A stretch of DNA of 64,000 nt from Komagataeibacter xylinus (GTDB lineage Bacteria > Pseudomonadota > Alphaproteobacteria > Acetobacterales > Acetobacteraceae), in NCBI RefSeq assembly GCF_031081985.1, contig NZ_JARWSK010000002.1:124001-188000 (forward strand). The letters are read 5' to 3'. Position 1 is the stretch's first letter, and every line of letters begins with the position of its first letter. Shown here in pieces: positions 15,743-47,970 of the stretch. Position numbers and translations under genes: made by a program. The notes under the pieces are model-generated. The model was not told where the DNA came from. It was given only the letters and a program-made list of their open reading frames with translations, and searched no databases.

Positions 15743-16825
15743 ATGAAGCAAATTCTGAAAGCGAATAAAATTCTCTTTTTTTCGTTTATTGTAGTCGCCT
15801 TCTCGCTTGTTGTTTTTGATCTTGAAACAATTCCTTTTGGCGGCCTCACCTACAGTACCTGCAAATGGGACTGTTTGTGGTACAGAGACATTATCCTGCA
15901 TGGATACCAGCCCGATGTCTATCTGTCGCTTCGCCATATAGGCAAGGCTGCGTGGCCGTTTTTCCCACTTTTTCCGGGACTTGCCGCAGGTGTTAAATAT
16001 CTGACGGGCCTGACTGCCGAAGGCGCGGCGCTGCTGCTTAACCAGACGCTGTTCTTTTTCATGGTGGCTTTTGCCGCGCTATATTACAAGAAATTCGTTG
16101 ATGGCCAGAAGTATATTTTATTTATATTATTACTTTGCCTTTCACCATTCTCCTTATGGTGCAAGATTCAATATACGGAATGTATTTATGCACTCATAAC
16201 GATTGCCATTGTTTATTTTGCAAAAGAAAAAAAATACATCCCGCTCTTCCTGTGTGCTTTCCTTGCCACCCTCACCCGCCCCACAGGCATCATGCTGGTG
16301 GGCACATGTGGGGCCTATCTCATGATTGAGGCGCTCAGGGCACGGAACCTGAATGATTTCTTGAACGGGGGTTTTTCCATCATGGCCGGCAGCCTGGGGC
16401 TGTCTGGCTATATGCTCTATCTCTATCATCTGAGCGGTGATGCGCTGGCCTTCGCGCATCTGGAGCGAAGCTGGGGGCGCGAGTTCGCGTTTCCCGGTGC
16501 GTGGCTCCTGGAGGCCATTCGGCATGGGCACCGGATCAACGGGCTGATCTCAGCATTTATCGACATGTTTTTCCTGTATTACGGCTTTAAAAAGCGGATG
16601 TACCTGGAAACATCGATCCTGGCAGTCACGTTCCTGTGCGCCATCAGTTCCGGTGTGGACTCACTGCATCGATACATCATGGGCAACCCTTTGTTTGTCA
16701 TGATTTTTGCTCGGCTTTTTGATTACAAAAGTAAAAAATTTACCAACTATGCCGTTCTGGGTGTTTTTTTTCTGAATATAATCATTTCCGCAATGTGGTT
16801 TAACGATTCACATTACTTCTACTAG
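15743..16825 (+). CDS. GT-C/PIG-V-like multispanning glycosyltransferase, module copy 1
   Basis: 360 residues, about 10 hydrophobic segments. It resembles bacterial PIG-V/Mannosyl_trans2-type GT-C enzymes: a lumenal CKWDCLWYRDI motif (W-D-x-x-W-Y), AAWPFFPLFP, IQYTECIYAL, and LTRPTG after the seventh or so helix. Such enzymes transfer a sugar from a polyprenyl-phosphate donor at the outer face of the inner membrane. It is far more AT-rich than the flanking core genes, suggesting transfer. A close paralogue with the same motifs is at 44670-45749, and each is followed by a related small protein. The donor and acceptor are unknown. Confidence 0.7.
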   Translation: MKQILKANKILFFSFIVVAFSLVVFDLETIPFGGLTYSTCKWDCLWYRDIILHGYQPDVYLSLRHIGKAAWPFFPLFPGLAAGVKYLTGLTAEGAALLLNQTLFFFMVAFAALYYKKFVDGQKYILFILLLCLSPFSLWCKIQYTECIYALITIAIVYFAKEKKYIPLFLCAFLATLTRPTGIMLVGTCGAYLMIEALRARNLNDFLNGGFSIMAGSLGLSGYMLYLYHLSGDALAFAHLERSWGREFAFPGAWLLEAIRHGHRINGLISAFIDMFFLYYGFKKRMYLETSILAVTFLCAISSGVDSLHRYIMGNPLFVMIFARLFDYKSKKFTNYAVLGVFFLNIIISAMWFNDSHYFY

Positions 16826-16842
16826 ACGGAGGCGTTAAATCC

Positions 16843-17118
16843 ATGCCAAAAAAAATAATCATTCCTCTGTCAATTCTTATTGCTTTATTTGACTTTTTTG
16901 TTCTCTCAAAAGCCATGCACCCGACAGCCAATCAAAATTACATAGATTATTTTATAAAAAAGAATATACCGGCCATGGATTACTATTACAAAGAATTGTA
17001 CGATTACTATGAACTCAGGCAGGCCCATCCGAATATGGAGACCTGGCGGTTCAGGCCCATCTGTCAGGACAAGCAGAAAGAATGCGTCCTGCCCACACCG
17101 TCGAGGTCATCACCGTAA
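16843..17118 (+). CDS. Small membrane-anchored protein of the GT-C module, copy 1
   Basis: 91 residues, family not recognised. An N-terminal hydrophobic segment (about 4-20, IIIPLSILIALFDFFVL) is followed by SKAMHPT, then YIDYFIKK, a Tyr-rich stretch and WRFRPIC with a second Cys seven residues on. The same pattern recurs in the protein at 44430-44660 (LSKAMHPT, YINYFIKK, WRLKSVC). GGAGG precedes the start and the gap after the GT-C gene is 17 bp, so they are probably co-translated. The likely arrangement is a periplasmic domain, perhaps with a disulfide, tethered beside the GT-C enzyme. Confidence 0.65.
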   Translation: MPKKIIIPLSILIALFDFFVLSKAMHPTANQNYIDYFIKKNIPAMDYYYKELYDYYELRQAHPNMETWRFRPICQDKQKECVLPTPSRSSP

Positions 17119-33021: not shown

Positions 33022-34011
33022 ATGAACCTGAACCCCAATTCCGTTCCGCGCCTTGCCATTGTCATTCCATGTTACAATGAAACAGAAGTTTTTCCCTTTT
33101 GCTTGCGCGAAATGGGGGAATATCTGAATGACATGATCCGACGGAACCTGGTGCAGGCGGAAAGTTACATACTGTTCGTTGACGATGGCAGCCGGGATGA
33201 TACGTGGCAGCAGATCAGTGCCGCCGCGAAAGAGCATTCCTTCGTCCGCGGGCTCAAGCTGTCATGCAACAAGGGCCACCAGGCGGCGCTGCTGGCGGGG
33301 CTGGCCAACGCGACGCAGGCCGATGCCATTGTCAGCATTGATGCCGACCTGCAGGATGACATCCACGCCATAGGCAAGATGGTGCAGTCCTATATGGCAG
33401 GACATGAAGTTGTTTATGGTGTGCGGGCCTCACGCCAGACCGATACGGCTTTCAAACGCACCACGGCGGAACTCTTCTACCGCATGATGACCTTCATGGG
33501 GGTGAAGCAGGTTTTCAATCATGCCGATTTCCGCCTTCTCAGCCAGCGTGCCTGCGCCGCCCTGCTGGAATATCATGAGAGGAACATCTACATCCGCGGC
33601 CTTGTGCCCCTGGTCGGCTTTCCCGCAGAAGAGGTCTATTACGACCGCAAGGAACGCATGGCTGGCGTTTCCAAATACCCTTTACGGAAAATGCTTGCCC
33701 TGGCCATGGAAGGCATCACTTCCATGACGGTCAGCCCGCTCAGGCTGATTACATTTGTGGGTGCTGCAATCGGCGCCATTTCGGTCCTGCTCTTTCTGAG
33801 CGTCATGGCATACTGGATACTGAAGGGCTGCGTGTCCGGCTGGATGTTTGTCATTGTCGCGCTTTTCGCCGCAACCGGCATACAGATGCTGTCTCTGGGT
33901 ATCGTTGGGGAATATGTCGGCAAAATATACCTTGAGACAAAGGAACGCCCTCGCTACCATATAGAAGAAAAAGAAGGGTTCCCTGCAGGCAACCCTTCCG
34001 CGCCAGCATGA
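33022..34011 (+). CDS. GtrB/ArnC-like GT2 glycosyltransferase with two C-terminal TM helices
   Basis: 329 residues. GT-A fold with LAIVIPCYNETEVFP, LFVDDGSRDDT, NKGHQAALLAGL and the DxD motif SIDADLQDD; GVSKYPLRKMLALAMEG precedes two TM helices (about 240-262 and 277-300). This is the architecture of enzymes that load a sugar onto undecaprenyl phosphate on the cytoplasmic side. The lipid-linked sugar could feed the GT-C-type proteins encoded nearby. No good ribosome-binding site is visible before the ATG. It is transcribed away from the secretion operon. Confidence 0.9.
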   Translation: MNLNPNSVPRLAIVIPCYNETEVFPFCLREMGEYLNDMIRRNLVQAESYILFVDDGSRDDTWQQISAAAKEHSFVRGLKLSCNKGHQAALLAGLANATQADAIVSIDADLQDDIHAIGKMVQSYMAGHEVVYGVRASRQTDTAFKRTTAELFYRMMTFMGVKQVFNHADFRLLSQRACAALLEYHERNIYIRGLVPLVGFPAEEVYYDRKERMAGVSKYPLRKMLALAMEGITSMTVSPLRLITFVGAAIGAISVLLFLSVMAYWILKGCVSGWMFVIVALFAATGIQMLSLGIVGEYVGKIYLETKERPRYHIEEKEGFPAGNPSAPA

Positions 34012-34540
34012 TACGCTACCCGTTCAGGGCCCGATAAAGCCAGAAACAGGCCCACGCCACCGTAGCAGGCCATGAATGCAGCATCGCTGCCTGTGCCTTT
34101 TCCATTCGTGCCGAGCTGGCTGTTGCCGACCCTAGGCGGGTGCGTGCATAAAGCCTTGACTGCACTGGTTATGTCCGGACTCGTTTGCGGTTGATGAAGG
34201 CAGCCTTCTCTTTTAAATTGAGGCCAATGTTCCAGTGCCCGGCCAGAAGGTAAGGACTTTGACCGCTTGCCCGTGTTAACGAGAAAGCAGAACGGATGCT
34301 TTGCTGAATGATTCGGTTGAATCACATCTTAAGGGTTGCGAATTCTGTGTTGATATGGCACGCGCCACGATCCACATCACCAAACGAAGGGGTGAGCCCA
34401 TAGCAGATGCCGGTCCTCAAAGTTCCAAAAAGGGCTCTTATGCATGAACATGCGCATCAAGCTACCCATGAGGGAGAGGCATGGCTGCTAAAAAATTTAT
34501 GTGATTGATATCGCATTCATTAAGAAAGTATATAACTGCA
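34012..34540 (+). other. Intergenic stretch, degraded DNA, no gene supported
   Basis: About 530 bases. Short frames on both strands (for example a minus-strand frame around 34150-34325) show no recognisable protein and contain no ribosome-binding sites of note. The patchy composition is like the IS-remnant regions elsewhere in the island, but I cannot assign it to an IS family. Confidence 0.35.
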
Positions 34541-35581
34541 ATGAAATGTCTTGTTACAGGTGGCGCGGGTTATGTAGGTAGCCATGTTATCATCAGCCTA
34601 CTGGACGCAGGACATGAGGTTGTCATCCTCGACAATCTGAGCACGGGGCACCTGGCTGCAGTGCCGCCGGGCGTACGTTTCTGGAATATTGATCTCGCGG
34701 ATGCACAGGCAACGCGGAACGCTGTCAGCCAGGAAAACTGGGATGTAGTGTTTCATTTCGCCGCCCTTTCCTCTGTCAGTGAATCAGTTGAGCGCCCCTT
34801 TTATTATCTGGGCCAGAATACGATCAACTCCCTCAATCTGATTGAGGCCTGCACGGATCACGGCGTCAAACGCTTTGTGTTTTCCTCTACCGCGGCCCTG
34901 TTCAATGGGGAAAACCATTGCGAATCGATCGCGGATAATGCCGTGATCGATCCCAGCTCGCCTTATGGCGACAGCAAATATTTCATTGAACGCGCGCTGA
35001 TATGGGCAGACCGTATCTGTGGCATGCGAAGCGCATGCCTGCGGTATTTCAATGCTGCGGGTGCTGACCCGCTCGGCCGCCTGGGTGAAGACCACCGGCC
35101 GGAAACACATCTCATTCCCCTCACCATTGATGCCGCCCTTGGCCTGCGCCCCATGCTCAAGATATTCGGCAACGATTATCATACGCCTGATGGAACCTGT
35201 GTCCGCGATTATGTGCATGTGACGGATCTGGCCGATGCCCATATCCGGGTTATCGATCAACTGGAACATGCGTCCGTCACTTACAATCTTGGTAACGGCA
35301 GGGGATTCAGCAATCTGGAGATCCTCCAGAGCGTGGAGCGGGTCAGTGGCCGGAAGGTACCGTGGGAATGGGCAGACCGCCGCCCGGGTGATCCCGCCAT
35401 CCTGGTCGCGGATTCCTCCCATATCCGCCAGGACACTGGCTGGAACCCACAATATCACGACATTGACAGCATTGTAGAAACAGCCCTGCGCTGGCGCGAA
35501 CACCATCCACATGGATATGATGACGCGCAAATATCCAAAGATGATGAGATAATTCTCATGCAGTGTAATGTTGGGACATAA
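34541..35581 (+). CDS. galE: UDP-glucose 4-epimerase
   Basis: Interconverts UDP-glucose and UDP-galactose to supply galactose for surface glycans. 346 residues from the ATG at 34541 (MKCLVTGGAGYVGSHVIISL); the frame also opens with a TTG at 34505. Extended SDR motifs: TGGAGYVGSH for NAD, FHFAALSSV, catalytic Ser in VFSSTAALF and YGDSK for Tyr-x-x-x-Lys, then RYFNAAGADPLGRLGE and CVRDYVHVTDLADAH. Mid-GC, alone on the plus strand between IS-scarred gaps. Confidence 0.94.
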   Translation: MKCLVTGGAGYVGSHVIISLLDAGHEVVILDNLSTGHLAAVPPGVRFWNIDLADAQATRNAVSQENWDVVFHFAALSSVSESVERPFYYLGQNTINSLNLIEACTDHGVKRFVFSSTAALFNGENHCESIADNAVIDPSSPYGDSKYFIERALIWADRICGMRSACLRYFNAAGADPLGRLGEDHRPETHLIPLTIDAALGLRPMLKIFGNDYHTPDGTCVRDYVHVTDLADAHIRVIDQLEHASVTYNLGNGRGFSNLEILQSVERVSGRKVPWEWADRRPGDPAILVADSSHIRQDTGWNPQYHDIDSIVETALRWREHHPHGYDDAQISKDDEIILMQCNVGT

Positions 35582-36666: not shown

Positions 36667-37065
36667 TCAATTATGACTTTTCTTCGACAAAACCATAGTT
36701 GCGAGATAATTAACAATAAGAGAAAGCGGAGTTACAATGATTTTTGATGAAATTGCAGATAAATTATGATCAACATAAAAATATAAGCTTAAATTATGCG
36801 ATAATATTTTAATTAAAAAAGACCAGACAAAAATAAAAAATTCCGTGTGAATGAAATACGACATAAAATACTTAAAATCAAAAAATTTTACTTTGAAAAT
36901 AATACGTCTGGAAATGACGTGCACAGTCATGGCAGCTATTGTAGAGCTTATAATATTTGATGACGCCGGTGAGAAATGCAGCAGCGTCACTAGACATGAA
37001 AATATTACAAGATCTGCAAACCATCCTGCGCCAGATAATAGCGTGAAAATAATACTGGATTTCAT
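36667..37065 (-). CDS. GtrA-family small membrane protein
   Basis: 132 residues, four hydrophobic segments: SSIIFTLLSGAGWFADLVIF, ISSTIAAMTVHVISRRIIFK, YFIHTEFFIFVWSFLI and IIVTPLSLIVNYLATMVLS. This matches GtrA proteins, proposed flippases for undecaprenyl-phosphate-linked sugars. Its ATG at 37065 overlaps the stop of the large membrane protein upstream (TGATG), so it is translationally coupled and the last gene of the seven-gene operon. Strongly AT-rich. Confidence 0.8.
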   Translation of the reverse strand: MKSSIIFTLLSGAGWFADLVIFSCLVTLLHFSPASSNIISSTIAAMTVHVISRRIIFKVKFFDFKYFMSYFIHTEFFIFVWSFLIKILSHNLSLYFYVDHNLSAISSKIIVTPLSLIVNYLATMVLSKKSHN

Positions 37066-39068
37066 CAGGATTGGGCCTTCTTTTGTGGCAGCCAACCTTT
37101 TTGAATAAGAGCCCAAAGCGGCAGAATCAGCATGCCCCAAATCCAGACCAGTATCATGTACGACCAGAATTTGGGCGCTGGCGACGCAAAAGCACATAAT
37201 GCGATAATAGATATTATCATATAATTTATTAAAATGATTATCCGATTTCTCACAAGCAATGGAATACAAAAAGTACAAAATAGCAGCCATATCCCCATAG
37301 GAATGAAAACCGATATTTTATAATAAAATTTTGTTACCGCAGAGGAGAGAGGAGCCTGCCATTTATAATCAGGCACCATGCCAGCAGCATCAGCATAAAA
37401 TTTGAAAATTGATGGCGTAAATACCCACGGTGTATACACCGAGTCCAATGTCTTATCTTGATAACGATCATAGATCTCCCATGCAGGCCACAGCGACAGT
37501 TCTGATAGTCGTGTTGTGGTACGCATAATCTCTGGTCGTGGATCATTTAATAAATCATGATTCAGTAGCTTGTTTAGCCTGTCATATGCCACCTTTCTTT
37601 CGGGATATTTAACCTTGGCAACAAATTTCCAGAAAAAATAGTCTTCTTTTACTGTACAATATGCTTCAATTCCACCTATCGTATCGAATGCTGCCACATC
37701 ATCAGGATTGCTTTTATTGCAATTAACGTATGGCCGCAAAAGATCGAGCGCGCTAATCATTTTATACTTTTCATTTTCTTGATTAATAGGTACGCCTTCT
37801 ATTGCTGGAATCAAGAAATTAATAATTCCTGTAGCAATCACAATATTTAAAAACGATTTTGCAACCTTAAATTTATCTTTATTTATATATGCATCATAGG
37901 CAATACTAAGGATCAGAAAAGACCAATACTCTGGACGAAGAAGAGCCGCCATCAATAAGAAAACGTAGCCAAGCGTCCCAACGCTCTGCTTCTGACTAAT
38001 ACGGATGCCAACGATGATAAACGCAGAAAACAGTATTTCTGCAGCGACAAACATACGTTGCTGAACAAAAAGCATAGAAAAAACAACAGGGCTAAATGCC
38101 TGCACAACAAAATATAACGATATCCATAGTTTACCCATTCTTAATTTTTTAAGATGGTATGCCAGATAAACACTGACAGAAAAATACAACAGAACTTGCG
38201 GTAATTGTATAAACAATGGGAAAAATGGATGAATGATAAATTGATACATGATGTAAAAAGAAGAATACCACGTATAGAATTGAGCCATCAAAGTATCATG
38301 CACTATAATATCACTGGCAAACATGCCAGGAAAAACAGATACATACTGAATGGCAATCTGAACAGCTAGAAGGCATGAAAATACTGGCACTTCAGACAGC
38401 ATATGCCATATATTTTTATAATAAACGATACACCACGTGAGTATGCCTGCGCAAAGGCCAGCAAACAGTACACTGGAGACGATCAAAAGCACATGAGCAT
38501 GTGCGATCGATCGTAAATTTATGCGATTAAGGCCAACATGCAGTGGAACTGTTACGGTGCGTTGAGGAGCCCATAATGAAGTGAACACAACATCATCGGG
38601 AGACATGGCACGGAGGAAAGTTGTCAGATAAATACCTGGGTAGACATGCTTTGCTACGCGTGATGACCACCAGGGATCTTTGCCCGTATGGTTAACCAAC
38701 CACCCGTCATTTTCTACAGTAATACACGAAGCGGATTGTGAGCTTCGTTCGCTTGTTTCCGGGCAGATACTATCGCCTTTTAAAATTTTATAAAAATCGT
38801 TACCTGCGCCAGAATTCCATTCTATAACGGTTCTGCCATCACGCTCAACACGAGCCCGGCCGTTGCCGGAAGCGCCGTCACTCCATGGAATTTGTGTGTC
38901 TTCCGCAGGCGAAAAGAACCGACCACGGTATACATCTGCCCCATTGCGGGAAAATAGAGTATACGATTTAACATATTTCCAAGTTGGAACTGTCATGACT
39001 AGAAATACAGAAAATATAAGAAAAGCTATCCCCCATATAAACTTTTTTTTGTTCTTATTGTAAGCCAT
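37065..39068 (-). CDS. Large multispanning membrane protein, GT-C/DUF6020-like
   Basis: 667 residues. TM helix near the N-terminus (about 10-30), then an extracytoplasmic domain (about 35-190, with EWNSGAGNDFYKILKGDSIC), then about ten TM helices. A short motif FPGMFASDIIVHDTLMAQFY (P-G-x-x-x-x-D near a first lumenal loop) and LRPEYW resemble large GT-C enzymes of the DUF6020/GtrC type. With GtrA directly downstream and GtrB-like GT2s nearby, it may transfer a lipid-linked sugar to a surface glycan. AGGAACC precedes its ATG. The DUF assignment is from memory, so only moderate confidence. Confidence 0.7.
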   Translation of the reverse strand: MAYNKNKKKFIWGIAFLIFSVFLVMTVPTWKYVKSYTLFSRNGADVYRGRFFSPAEDTQIPWSDGASGNGRARVERDGRTVIEWNSGAGNDFYKILKGDSICPETSERSSQSASCITVENDGWLVNHTGKDPWWSSRVAKHVYPGIYLTTFLRAMSPDDVVFTSLWAPQRTVTVPLHVGLNRINLRSIAHAHVLLIVSSVLFAGLCAGILTWCIVYYKNIWHMLSEVPVFSCLLAVQIAIQYVSVFPGMFASDIIVHDTLMAQFYTWYSSFYIMYQFIIHPFFPLFIQLPQVLLYFSVSVYLAYHLKKLRMGKLWISLYFVVQAFSPVVFSMLFVQQRMFVAAEILFSAFIIVGIRISQKQSVGTLGYVFLLMAALLRPEYWSFLILSIAYDAYINKDKFKVAKSFLNIVIATGIINFLIPAIEGVPINQENEKYKMISALDLLRPYVNCNKSNPDDVAAFDTIGGIEAYCTVKEDYFFWKFVAKVKYPERKVAYDRLNKLLNHDLLNDPRPEIMRTTTRLSELSLWPAWEIYDRYQDKTLDSVYTPWVFTPSIFKFYADAAGMVPDYKWQAPLSSAVTKFYYKISVFIPMGIWLLFCTFCIPLLVRNRIIILINYMIISIIALCAFASPAPKFWSYMILVWIWGMLILPLWALIQKGWLPQKKAQS

Positions 39069-42736: not shown

Positions 42737-43582
42737 TCAGATAGGGTCAGCCGCCACAGTGCTGCTGGTTTGGTCGCCTTCCCAGAAACCGACCACTGTA
42801 GAAGGGTAAGCATCACGTACGATAGCACGATGCTCGCCTTTTTCAAACGCGGAAAGCGATTTGACCCGCTGGCCCAGCAGATTCAGAATCTGGAATCCCA
42901 TCCGGGACAGCTTGGCGTTGGAGACCTGATCATCTTCCCGCCATGTCAGTGGGAAGAAGCGCAGCCGGAACGGGCGCGCGGCCACAGTCAGGATCAGATA
43001 ATAATTAAACGTCAGGTCGTCCGCAAACCGATGCTGGAAATCATCATCAAACGAAGAGAGGCGAAACAGATTCAGCCCTGAACCCAGATCATAGAGGCGA
43101 CGGCGGGAAATGACGGAAAAAATGAAATTGAAGGCCTTGTTGGCCATGGTGCGCAGAAGGGAATATCCTTCCAGCCGGGACCCCTTCATAAAGCGCGCCC
43201 CCATGAGGAAGTCCTCATTCAGATAGCTGCCATCCTCCAGGTAGGGCAACAGGTCGATAATGGAACCCTGATCATCGCCATGCAGCACGATCAGGAAGTC
43301 ATAGCCGTGCTTGCGACCAAATTCGATAGCGACCTTGTGTGAGCCACCAAGACCGTAATTGTCGTTATTCCGCAACAATGTACGATGGGAAATCTGATGC
43401 AGGGACGCCAGCCCTTCCGCCGCCGCGGCACTGGTCTGGTCCGTAGACCGGTTATCAATGCAAACCACGCCATCCACAAACTTCGCCACGTCTGGATGGG
43501 TCAACTGCTTTATTACGCGCGGAATCTGAGGAGCGCAATTATACATAGGTATGAAAACAAGAATACGGCTATTATTTAACAT
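42737..43582 (-). CDS. GT2 (DPM1-like) glycosyltransferase
   Basis: 281 residues. ILVFIPMYNCAPQIPRVIKQ, VVCIDNRSTDQTSAAA, NNDNYGLGGSHKVAIEF and the DxD-like LHGDDQGSI give a dolichol-phosphate-mannose-synthase-like GT-A fold; no TM helices in the C-terminus. It is probably a polyprenyl-phosphate glycosyltransferase. Presumed first gene of the seven-gene operon running 43582 to 36667. AAAGG lies about 14 bases upstream of the ATG, a weak site. Confidence 0.88.
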   Translation of the reverse strand: MLNNSRILVFIPMYNCAPQIPRVIKQLTHPDVAKFVDGVVCIDNRSTDQTSAAAAEGLASLHQISHRTLLRNNDNYGLGGSHKVAIEFGRKHGYDFLIVLHGDDQGSIIDLLPYLEDGSYLNEDFLMGARFMKGSRLEGYSLLRTMANKAFNFIFSVISRRRLYDLGSGLNLFRLSSFDDDFQHRFADDLTFNYYLILTVAARPFRLRFFPLTWREDDQVSNAKLSRMGFQILNLLGQRVKSLSAFEKGEHRAIVRDAYPSTVVGFWEGDQTSSTVAADPI

Positions 43583-44429
43583 AGCAATGATATACCTTTC
43601 ATTTTAAGAAATTTTTATGCGCACGTTATTTTTATTATAAGGAAAACTTTGCACACTTATAAATTATCGATATAATGAGCACAAGCCCGCTAGCCAGACC
43701 CCGGTCAATAAAACAGGGGAAGATTCTTGGCAATATGGAACTTGGCCTATGTCCGGTTCCGCCAATGGGCGCGGCACGCAACCACGCCAGCCAACTGACC
43801 AGCACTACGAGAATGCCTGGCTGTTCGGGGCAATCTGTCCGGCGACAAGGCTGTCAGCCTGGTGCTGCCGTTCATCGGCACCGCCAGCATGCAACTTCAT
43901 ATCGAGGAGATCCACGCTGCGTCGCCCGCGGCGCCCATGCTGTCGTGCTGCTCGATCGCGCAGGATGGCATACCACCAGTAAACTGAAGCTACCCCGCAA
44001 TGTCAGCCTGATCTCCCTGCCGTCCCGTGCTCCCGAACTGAACCCGGTCGAGAATATGTGGCAGTTCCTACACGCCAATTGCTGGCAAATACCGTCCTCG
44101 ACGGCATCGAGCACATCATCGACGCCGCCTGTTCCGCTTGGAATAATCTTGCCGCCTTGTCTGAAACCATTCGATCCATCGGTCTGAGAAAGTGGGCTTA
44201 CACAGGTTCAGTGCCTATAACCGTTGGTATCAGAGGCTTCTGTTTCGCTTACAATCATCGCCCGCAGCGTGTTCTGGGCGGCATAACGCCCGCCCAATGC
44301 ATCACGTCGTAGCTTGAAAAACATCCAGCGCTCCGTAATCCTGATCACATCAAACCGGCTGGTCGTGACACCATGAAACAGGTCGACGAAATCATTGATT
44401 ACGCCAATGATGCCTCATCAACCCGACAA
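43583..44429 (+). other. IS graveyard between the operon and module copy 2
   Basis: About 850 bases without an intact gene. It holds a frameshifted IS630-type transposase (separate entry) and, at 44215-44312, a short frame reading FAYNHRPQRVLGGITPAQ, which looks like the C-terminal end of an IS3/IS481-type integrase. The first 90 bases are AT-rich and probably hold the operon promoter. Confidence 0.55.
43730..44215 (+). pseudogene. IS630-family transposase remnant
   Basis: The C-terminal two thirds of an IS630 transposase are spread over three frames. In order these read NAWLFGAICPA, a segment LVLPFIGTASMQLH, LLDRAGWHTTSKLKLP (catalytic Asp), SLISLPSRAPELNPVENMWQ (the PELNPVE catalytic Glu), then AWNNLAALSETIRSIGLRKW. 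At least two frameshifts make it inactive. Confidence 0.8.
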
Positions 44430-44660
44430 CTAACAATCGGTTGTATAATAATCTGGCTTACATACACTTTTCAGCCTCCAGCCATTTCCTTCACCAAGGC
44501 CATTCATTTCCTGCAGCCAGTATTCATCCCTACTTATTTTCTTTTTTATGAAGTAATTTATATAACTTTCACTTTTTGTAGGATGCATTGCCTTTGAAAG
44601 GACGAACACATCAAACGCTATTATCAATAAAGATGCGAATAATATTTTTTTATTTATCAT
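44430..44660 (-). CDS. Small membrane-anchored protein of the GT-C module, copy 2
   Basis: 76 residues, family not recognised. N-terminal TM (about 4-19), then FVLSKAMHPT, YINYFIKK and WRLKSVC with a last residue Cys nine positions on. The same order of motifs is in the protein at 16843-17118. It starts 9 bp after the GT-C gene on the same strand, as in the other copy. Very AT-rich. The conserved pairing argues that the two gene products work together. Confidence 0.65.
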   Translation of the reverse strand: MINKKILFASLLIIAFDVFVLSKAMHPTKSESYINYFIKKKISRDEYWLQEMNGLGEGNGWRLKSVCKPDYYTTDC

Positions 44661-44669
44661 TTTATTCTC

Positions 44670-45749
44670 TCAATAAAAATACTTAGCGCCATAAAACCAA
44701 AAGTAATTAACCAATACACCCGTTACAAAAAGAAGTGATAAAGTGATTTTTCTGAACATTTTTGATTTGTCATTTAGAAAAATACACAATATTATCGAAA
44801 ATAATGGGTTTCCCATTATATACCGATGCATAGATTCAACCCCTCCACTTATAGCAAGCAAAAAAGTAATCAGCAGTATCAAAGCTTCTAAATGTAGATT
44901 ATTTTTAAATCCATATCGTATGAAGAAAATATCAATAAAAGATGATATGACCCCATTTATTTTTTTAAGATGCACAATAGCCTTTACTATCCATGCACCA
45001 GGAAATTTGAGATGCTTGCCCCAACTGATTTCAATATGAGAGAAAGCGAGCGCATCTCCTGCTGTTTTATATAGAAAAAGCATATACGAAGAGACACCCA
45101 GACTACCAACCACGGTAGGAAAAGCATAATTGATTATATTCTCATATTCTTTATTTTTAAGGCATGTATAAATCAGATACAGGGAGCATGCCAATACAAC
45201 GAAAACACCCGTTGGCCTTGTGAGGGATAGAAAAAATGCCACCACACTTAAGGATATATATTTTTTCTCTTTTGTGAAAATACATGCCAGTATCACTAAT
45301 ATGCCATACAAGCACTCAGTATACTGCATTTTATACCATACAGAAAATGGCGACATTAAAAGTATAAACGCCAAAATGACTTCGTTTTTTATCTCACAGA
45401 ACTTTTTTGCATAAAATAAGGTGATGAACATTAGGAAAAATAAAAGTGCCTGATTTAATATTAATCCACATTCATAATAATCATATCCAATGATATAATG
45501 CACAAAACGGACAAGCATTGGATATGCCGGGAAAAATGGCCATCCAGCCATGCCAAATTTATTGTAATATAAATAGGTGTCTTTTTCATACCCAAATTGA
45601 GCGATATGTATATACCAATGGCAATCCCATTTACACGATGCCTGAGATGGATTTGAAAAAAAAATCGCTTCTGCATCAAATATAAATAGAGATAAGATGC
45701 AAATTGCTATCGGTATCAAGAAGTTTTTTATTTTTATATTATTAAACAT
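44670..45749 (-). CDS. GT-C/PIG-V-like multispanning glycosyltransferase, module copy 2
   Basis: 359 residues, about 10 TM helices. Same motifs as 15743-16825: SCKWDCHWYIHI, GWPFFPAYP, MQYTECLYGI, SLTRPTG, ISWGKHLKFPGAW, SSFIDIFFIRYGFKN and GVESMHRYIMGNPLF. GAGGGTTAG precedes its ATG. The gene is more AT-rich than copy 1. As for copy 1, PIG-V/GT-C membership is by motif resemblance; the acceptor is unknown. Confidence 0.72.
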   Translation of the reverse strand: MFNNIKIKNFLIPIAICILSLFIFDAEAIFFSNPSQASCKWDCHWYIHIAQFGYEKDTYLYYNKFGMAGWPFFPAYPMLVRFVHYIIGYDYYECGLILNQALLFFLMFITLFYAKKFCEIKNEVILAFILLMSPFSVWYKMQYTECLYGILVILACIFTKEKKYISLSVVAFFLSLTRPTGVFVVLACSLYLIYTCLKNKEYENIINYAFPTVVGSLGVSSYMLFLYKTAGDALAFSHIEISWGKHLKFPGAWIVKAIVHLKKINGVISSFIDIFFIRYGFKNNLHLEALILLITFLLAISGGVESMHRYIMGNPLFSIILCIFLNDKSKMFRKITLSLLFVTGVLVNYFWFYGAKYFY

Positions 45750-47169: not shown

Positions 47170-47964
47170 TTACGCGGCTTTCTTTGCTGCGCCATCCGTT
47201 TTTGTCTTGTTGCGTAAATTTAAAAATATCATCTGCACAAACTGCAGCAGGACCTTGCTGTTCATCTTGCTGTCTCCCTCATGACGGGAGCGAAAGACAA
47301 ATGGCAGTTCAGTGACCCTGGGTTTGGTTTCCTGCACCATCAGCATATCGAGCAGGATCTTGAAGCCCTTGCCGGACAGCCTGTCAACGGATCTGACAAA
47401 CATCTCCCGCCGCATGGCAAAGAAACCGCTCATCGGGTCTTTTACCCTGACAGGCAACAGGTACTGCGCGATGCGAATGCCCGCATTGGACAGGAACAGG
47501 CGCCATGCATTGGCCAGCCCCGCGTTATTGCAGCCTTCAACATAACGGCTGCCAATCGCCACATCATAGTTATCGTGCACAATGGCGTCAGCCATCTTCT
47601 GCAACAGGCTTTCATCATGCTGCATATCGCCATCCATAACCGCCACGACAGGCGCCGAGGAGGACAGGATGCCTTCGATCACGGCCGATGAAAGTCCCCG
47701 GCGCCCGACACGCAACAGGCCCCGCACCCGACAGTCGGCCTGCGCCAGCCACCAGATTTCATCAATGGTGCCGTCGGGGGAATTGTCATCCACAAAGATG
47801 AGTTCCCACCTGTAGCGTGTTATCGCTTTTTCAACGGCACGGAACAGGGGTTCTACGTTACCGCGTTCGTTGTAACACGGAATGATGATGCTCAATTCAG
47901 GCCCCGGAAGGATGCCATTCCCGTCATGTGTATCGTGTGATGCAGGAGCAGAAAAGACTTGCAT
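47170..47964 (-). CDS. Dpm1-like GT2 polyprenyl-phosphate glycosyltransferase
   Basis: 264 residues from the ATG at 47964 (a TTG at 47970 is in frame). GT-A motifs: LSIIIPCYNERGNVEPLFRA, LIFVDDNSPDGT, GLSSAVIEGIL and VMDGDMQHDE (DxD), then YVEGC and VKDPMSGFFAMRREMF, the signature of polyprenol-phosphate-mannose synthases. No TM helices. GC content is higher than the neighbouring island genes. Probably makes a lipid-linked sugar donor for the GT-C proteins of the island. Confidence 0.9.
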   Translation of the reverse strand: MQVFSAPASHDTHDGNGILPGPELSIIIPCYNERGNVEPLFRAVEKAITRYRWELIFVDDNSPDGTIDEIWWLAQADCRVRGLLRVGRRGLSSAVIEGILSSSAPVVAVMDGDMQHDESLLQKMADAIVHDNYDVAIGSRYVEGCNNAGLANAWRLFLSNAGIRIAQYLLPVRVKDPMSGFFAMRREMFVRSVDRLSGKGFKILLDMLMVQETKPRVTELPFVFRSRHEGDSKMNSKVLLQFVQMIFLNLRNKTKTDGAAKKAA

Positions 47965-47970
47965 AATCAA

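Follow-up and report, generated by a model that had tools for sequence, protein, structure and literature searches.

A small single-span membrane protein as the probable partner subunit of a PIG-V-like GT-C glycosyltransferase in Komagataeibacter xylinus

Why should a membrane glycosyltransferase of the GT-C type be encoded twice within a short region of a bacterial genome, each time with the gene of a very small membrane protein directly behind it? The question is raised by a 64,000-nucleotide stretch of Komagataeibacter xylinus DNA (assembly GCF_031081985.1, contig NZ_JARWSK010000002.1, positions 124,001 to 188,000 of the forward strand), referred to here as the window, within which all coordinates are counted. 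We conclude with moderate confidence that each pair is one two-subunit enzyme, in which the small protein is a subunit dedicated to the PIG-V-like GT-C beside it. The first pair (copy 1) consists of a multispanning GT-C of 360 residues (15743..16825, + strand) and, 17 bp after it, a 91-residue single-span partner (16843..17118, +), an arrangement noted in a preliminary description of this DNA and reproduced by our open reading frame (ORF) coordinates. The second pair that it reported, at 44430-45749, is likewise present and inverted relative to copy 1; it comprises a 359-residue GT-C (44670..45749, - strand) and a 76-residue partner (44430..44660, -) that lies in the same frame, 9 bp past the TGA stop codon of the GT-C. 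The GT-Cs of the two copies are 46% identical over 340 residues (E 4e-113) and the small proteins 41% identical over 75 residues (E 8e-20), whereas a search of the organism's own genome to E 0.001 revealed no third GT-C copy. An AT-rich insert between core genes, as had been described, is indeed seen: the gene pairs have G+C contents of 45.7% and 32.3%, compared with 60.4% for the whole window, and copy 1 is flanked by mlaC and an asparaginase gene. The counterpart of copy 1 in K. xylinus L100 has the same flanks, as judged from its ORFs. In a tree of the GT-Cs, the nearest named rows to the window protein (among the best 80 of 391 relatives) come from K. nataicola, K. xylinus and K. melomenusus, and copy 2 falls outside the five-row copy-1 group, with both copies inside one supported clade.

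The evidence for a dedicated partner comes first from the genomic distribution of the two genes. With the copy-2 small protein as sole query, nine places were found in eight of 249 genomes of the family, and by their coordinates all nine lie just 3' of a GT-C match. In the order, 395 genomes were searched with profile A1 (19 small proteins, E up to 0.05) and profile A2 (23 GT-Cs, E up to 1e-10); both profiles were made from the same family, and the search therefore tests linkage rather than discovery. Partners were detected at 59 places in 51 genomes and GT-Cs in 62 genomes, with a GT-C present in 49 of the 51 partner genomes (Fisher p 8e-48). Every one of the 49 genomes with a confident partner match has a GT-C, and 55 of the 56 confident places directly adjoin it, as expected of the dedicated partner that had been proposed earlier. 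Specifically, at 54 of the 59 places the partner adjoins the 3' side of a GT-C; in genome G366 it lies directly 5', in G417 it lies 1.1 kb behind a disrupted GT-C, and three weak matches (E 0.013-0.049) fall in two genomes without GT-C; no confident match occurs in any of the 333 order genomes that lack GT-C. Viewed from the enzyme, 54 of 75 GT-C places (78 rows minus three second-fragment rows) have a partner directly 3'. Among the 337 genomes searched at the level of the class, partner matches beyond the organism's own genome were limited to five genomes (E 0.007-0.009), whose loci, taken to about 1.5 kb on each side, contained no GT-C at E 1e-10 and no match to the wider partner profile at E 0.1, and the GT-C profile gave one weak match (E 3e-9) beyond the own genome.

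A second set of loci was drawn from named genomes and comprises the best 80 of 391 confirmed GT-C relatives. A partner profile that started from known partners and went through three rounds of iteration on the same 80 loci detected a partner in 61 of them (E below 1e-3 in 59 loci, close to 0.09 in the other two), in genomes ranging from Komagataeibacter, Aeromonas and Zymomonas to one Chlorobiaceae and two Lachnospiraceae. Gene order varies considerably: the partner is directly 3' of the GT-C in 38 loci, behind a two-piece GT-C in two (L143 and L149), 5' of it in three, on the facing strand in one (Zymomonas L131) and upstream in 17 loci of Aeromonas, Vibrio and Shewanella, where a family 2 glycosyltransferase (GT2) gene stands in between with or without GtrA, as read out in L141 and L144 and judged from distances in the rest. 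An additional pair, outside the 61 counted, is present on plasmid pMc1192 of Mesorhizobium ciceri (L188 3776-7768), which carries together a GT-C, an overlapping 207-residue partner containing LHPNVHPDYRAYYI, GtrA, a methyltransferase and GT2; both the GT-C and the partner are annotated as hypothetical proteins. A tblastn search of plasmids returned 13 records, none reaching 80% query coverage, and the stretch matched on an Aeromonas caviae plasmid bears no annotation, while 27 pattern matches in viral contigs included no relative. The preliminary description had asked whether homologs of the small protein are commonly found away from GT-C genes; in the order genomes and named loci they are not, and the data strongly support a partner dedicated to GT-C well beyond the acetic acid bacteria. 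Other layouts were also observed. In Acetobacter estunensis (L113 6769-9257) two tandem GT-C genes are followed by one partner, and split GT-C genes with the partner behind them occur in K. europaeus (L149 1816-4126), where a 141-residue ORF between the pieces is presumably transposase-like, and in another Komagataeibacter genome (G417:C315 83395-85624).

The small gene is real rather than a chance ORF, because its ratio of nonsynonymous to synonymous substitution rates (dN/dS) shows purifying selection: against four orthologs of the genus Komagataeibacter the ratio is 0.14-0.26, and for the GT-C it is 0.12-0.16 in the same four comparisons (a fifth comparison, with L102, yielded no ratio for the small gene, whose synonymous sites were saturated). 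These values and the separate motif of the protein likewise rule out a frameshifted GT-C end. The core common to the partners is one helix followed by the motif HPxVSxxYRxYYI, which has the form HPTANQNYIDYFI in copy 1 (16918..16956, +) and HPTKSESYINYFI in copy 2 (44547..44585, -), with a near-invariant Tyr and Pro immediately outside the membrane. The partner of Dyella, at only 39 residues, consists of helix and motif, and the three forward frames behind its gene contain no frameshifted long partner. A different segment, WR...C...C, had been suggested as a contact region, which our data do not support; it is confined to the Komagataeibacter copies, whereas helix and motif are conserved, and the tail that contains it has a predicted local distance difference test score (pLDDT) of 47-48 in the joint model described below. 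The statement that no described family covers the small protein holds for the libraries searched: Pfam contains no family above chance (best E 0.012, single member), the small proteins of the window give no Pfam match, DUF7024 (PF22895) included, even at E up to 1, and NCBIfam has no family for either. A sequence search of the PDB with the partner gave two chance-level matches only (E 1.7).

The large protein is predicted by structural fold match to adopt a GT-C membrane fold, in line with its initial assignment. Its relationship to PIG-V is visible in relatives, as nine of 23 match PIG-V / Mannosyl_trans2 (PF04188) at E up to 0.1 (best 8e-8), whereas neither window GT-C matches this family at E up to 1. 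Both show a weak likeness to the AZOBR_p60025 cell surface glycopolymer formation protein (NCBIfam NF046093), scoring 24.7 and 31.1 bits (E 1e-5 and 1e-7), far under the cut-off of 150, and are not members; the GT-C profile had no match in a PDB sequence search at E up to 1. The copy-1 enzyme carries, all on the + strand, the segments CKWDC (15860-15874), FFPLFP (15959-15976), LTRPTG (16271-16288), GDALAFAHLERSW (16436-16474) and SLHRYIMGNP (16661-16690). Asp42 of CKWDC is invariant in 23 of 23 aligned relatives and is placed by the model in the first extracytoplasmic loop after helix 1; we infer that it is the catalytic acidic residue.

These features can be combined into a mechanism, in which the GT-C would act on the periplasmic side of the membrane and transfer a sugar from a polyprenyl-phosphate carrier to a glycan or glycolipid of the cell surface. 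The partner, with its N-terminus inside, would pack its single helix on the GT-C within the membrane, and HPxVSxxYRxYYI, directly after the helix, would rest against the enzyme's periplasmic face and may there hold or complete the cavity beneath the catalytic first loop (CKWDC). The GT-C and partner were modeled jointly as one chain with a four-residue read-through linker, and the model was read from its pLDDT values. The motif and following residues (391-410) reach 84-89, whereas in a model of the lone Thiocapsa partner, which differs from the joint model in sequence and alignment, the same stretch falls from 77 to 59; this predicted pattern fits a docked motif. A broader proposal is that an obligate one-helix subunit, down to 39 residues long, completes the active site of PIG-V-like GT-Cs through HPxVSxxYRxYYI in several bacterial phyla, and we advance this only tentatively.

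Several observations weigh against a two-subunit enzyme. By its charges, the joint chain has the GT-C end outside and the partner start inside, and the short read-through linker strains the model because these ends lie on opposite sides; in addition, the pLDDT of the partner helix is only 71-72. Mutual-information coevolution, calculated from 68 GT-C/partner pairs (effective number of sequences 34), is 0.348, and within-clade shuffles that keep the phylogeny reach 0.40-0.47; because the shuffles exceed the observed value, the contact candidates (taken at consistent depth) were discarded and not used. The correlation of GT-C and partner distances is high, 0.675 overall and 0.82 in 23 Acetobacteraceae pairs, but may partly reflect shared descent. 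(GT-C rows with fewer than 250 profile positions were left out of the distance correlation and tree, those with fewer than 300 out of the coevolution analysis, and near-identical rows out as well; partner-only rows L140, L148 and L173 were left out of alignment A3 after poor trial alignment.) All three partner loci outside Pseudomonadota are contigs of metagenome-assembled genomes and possibly mis-binned. Finally, at the thresholds used no partner was detected in 13 of the 62 GT-C genomes of the order or in 19 of the 80 named loci, several of which are on short contigs; therefore, some GT-Cs need no partner, or theirs lies beyond detection. The 19 include two tree groups, one of five Acetobacteraceae/Acidocellaceae rows and one of seven rows from Burkholderiales, Neisseriales and kin. 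In the partnerless loci L108, L111 and L117, a GtrB-like GT2 directly adjoins the GT-C instead.

Four other explanations of the pairing were weighed. The partner could mainly be a subunit for acceptor binding or delivery that holds a glycan of the cell surface and offers it to the GT-C, which we consider unlikely. Outside the acetic acid bacteria most partners do have an extra periplasmic domain, which in the one modeled is predicted to be jelly-roll-like, but unrelated jelly rolls score equally well, and DUF7024 matches this domain in two of nine long partners scanned, leaving seven without a match. Moreover, the domain is missing from the window partners, from Dyella, from one Lachnospiraceae partner and from 41 of 44 distinct partners of order genomes (loci clipped at about 1.5 kb), whereas helix and motif stay. 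A structural subunit is favored over an acceptor binder, and the extra domain would be an addition that probably serves the glycan acceptor and is absent from most forms from acetic acid bacteria. Quite improbably, the partner might instead serve the donor side, namely the GtrA flippase or the GtrB-like GT2. Its gene does adjoin GT2 in Aeromonas L144 and Vibrio L141, and within 3.5 kb of the GT-C partner loci contain GT2 in 34 of 61 cases and GtrA in 20 of 61, versus three and none of the 19 partnerless loci (four or five of the loci had themselves supplied the seeds for the GT2 and GtrA profiles). However, GT2 is absent from this interval in 27 and GtrA in 41 of the 61 partner loci, where the GT-C is present, and copy 1 has neither gene adjoining. 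As these loci were gathered by their GT-C, the unbiased test of GT-C linkage is the order-level profile search. There is a still slimmer chance that the partner is a substrate, either glycosylated by the GT-C or relaying a group to the glycan through its Tyr, comparable to the role proposed for DltX in the D-alanylation of teichoic acid. Two residues that hardly vary, Tyr and Pro, placed right outside the membrane in so short a protein, would suit this role, but Trp or Phe replaces the Tyr in partners L027, L033, L035 and L037, GT-Cs are known to transfer straight from lipid carriers, and we know of no precedent for a glycosyl relay in a GT-C. Mere neighborhood, in which an unrelated small gene travels with the GT-C gene, is highly improbable: short proteins adjoining another gene in one operon are common and the interface of the pair is putative, but this explanation is strained by the co-occurrence described above and by a pairing that persists in distant bacteria even where gene order and strand differ.

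The copy-2 pair belongs to an island of low G+C content that also encodes GT2 enzymes, an epimerase and a GtrA-like protein. A GT2 of 329 residues (33022..34011, +; PF00535, 4e-21) is a candidate maker of the polyprenyl-phosphate sugar, and the island also encodes an NAD-dependent sugar epimerase-like protein (34505..35581, +; PF01370, 1e-51). The GtrA-like membrane protein (36667..37290, -; PF04138, 1.5e-5, 25.6 bits, slightly under the Pfam cut-off of 26.1), a candidate flippase, has an uncertain start: the match covers ORF residues 82-198, and the true start probably lies further inside the ORF. The long form of this ORF is overlapped by that of a 667-residue membrane protein (37065-39068, -), which has no Pfam match at E 0.01. 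Two more GT2 genes are located at 42737..43582 (-; PF00535, 6e-8) and 47170..47970 (-; PF00535, 1e-30). A DDE_3 transposase-like remnant adjoins copy 2 (43675-44187, +; Pfam E 8e-8) and suggests a route by which the island may have changed.

The available part of PMC8035078 describes multi-component transmembrane glycosylation, in which a C55-polyprenyl-phosphate (C55-P) sugar is made inside, flipped and used outside by a GT-C, the first such systems comprising a donor enzyme, a flippase and the GT-C. Many loci, and the island of copy 2, resemble these systems as described there in that a GT-C clusters with genes for GT2 and GtrA-like proteins, whereas the conserved single-span partner is extra and copy 1 consists of GT-C and partner alone. 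According to the portion of PMC7125958 at hand, yeast Gpi18 of glycosylphosphatidylinositol (GPI) mannosyltransferase II needs Pga1 and forms a complex with it, and elsewhere in the GPI pathway PIGX stabilizes PIGM. The combination of a PIG-V-type GT-C and a partner is a likeness of role; unlike Pga1 as presented in that portion, the partner here is bacterial, has an N-terminal helix and can be as short as 39 residues. In GPI mannosyltransferase I, extracts of PMC12653191 state that a Pbn1 helix packs on Gpi14 and that the donor makes no contact with Pbn1. That pair and PIG-M-PIG-X differ from ours, as far as the extracts go, since the helix of Pbn1 is C-terminal and its lumenal domain is large, and since the enzyme is of the PIG-M rather than the PIG-V type. 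In the literature searched, with subscription journals mostly outside reach, no paper was found that describes a bacterial PIG-V-like GT-C with a single-span partner, and searches on DUF7024 and AZOBR_p60025 yielded no paper. The small partner is probably an overlooked subunit of a GT-C enzyme. A missed subunit could explain failed expression or reconstitution of such GT-Cs alone, and its recognition would name a set of small genes not covered by the libraries searched. It would also offer a bacterial model for a question posed in the accessible part of PMC7125958, why Gpi18 of yeast depends on a partner when mammalian PIG-V requires none; if the broader proposal for several phyla were true, the need for a single-span partner would be an old property, kept by yeast Gpi18-Pga1 and lost by mammalian PIG-V.
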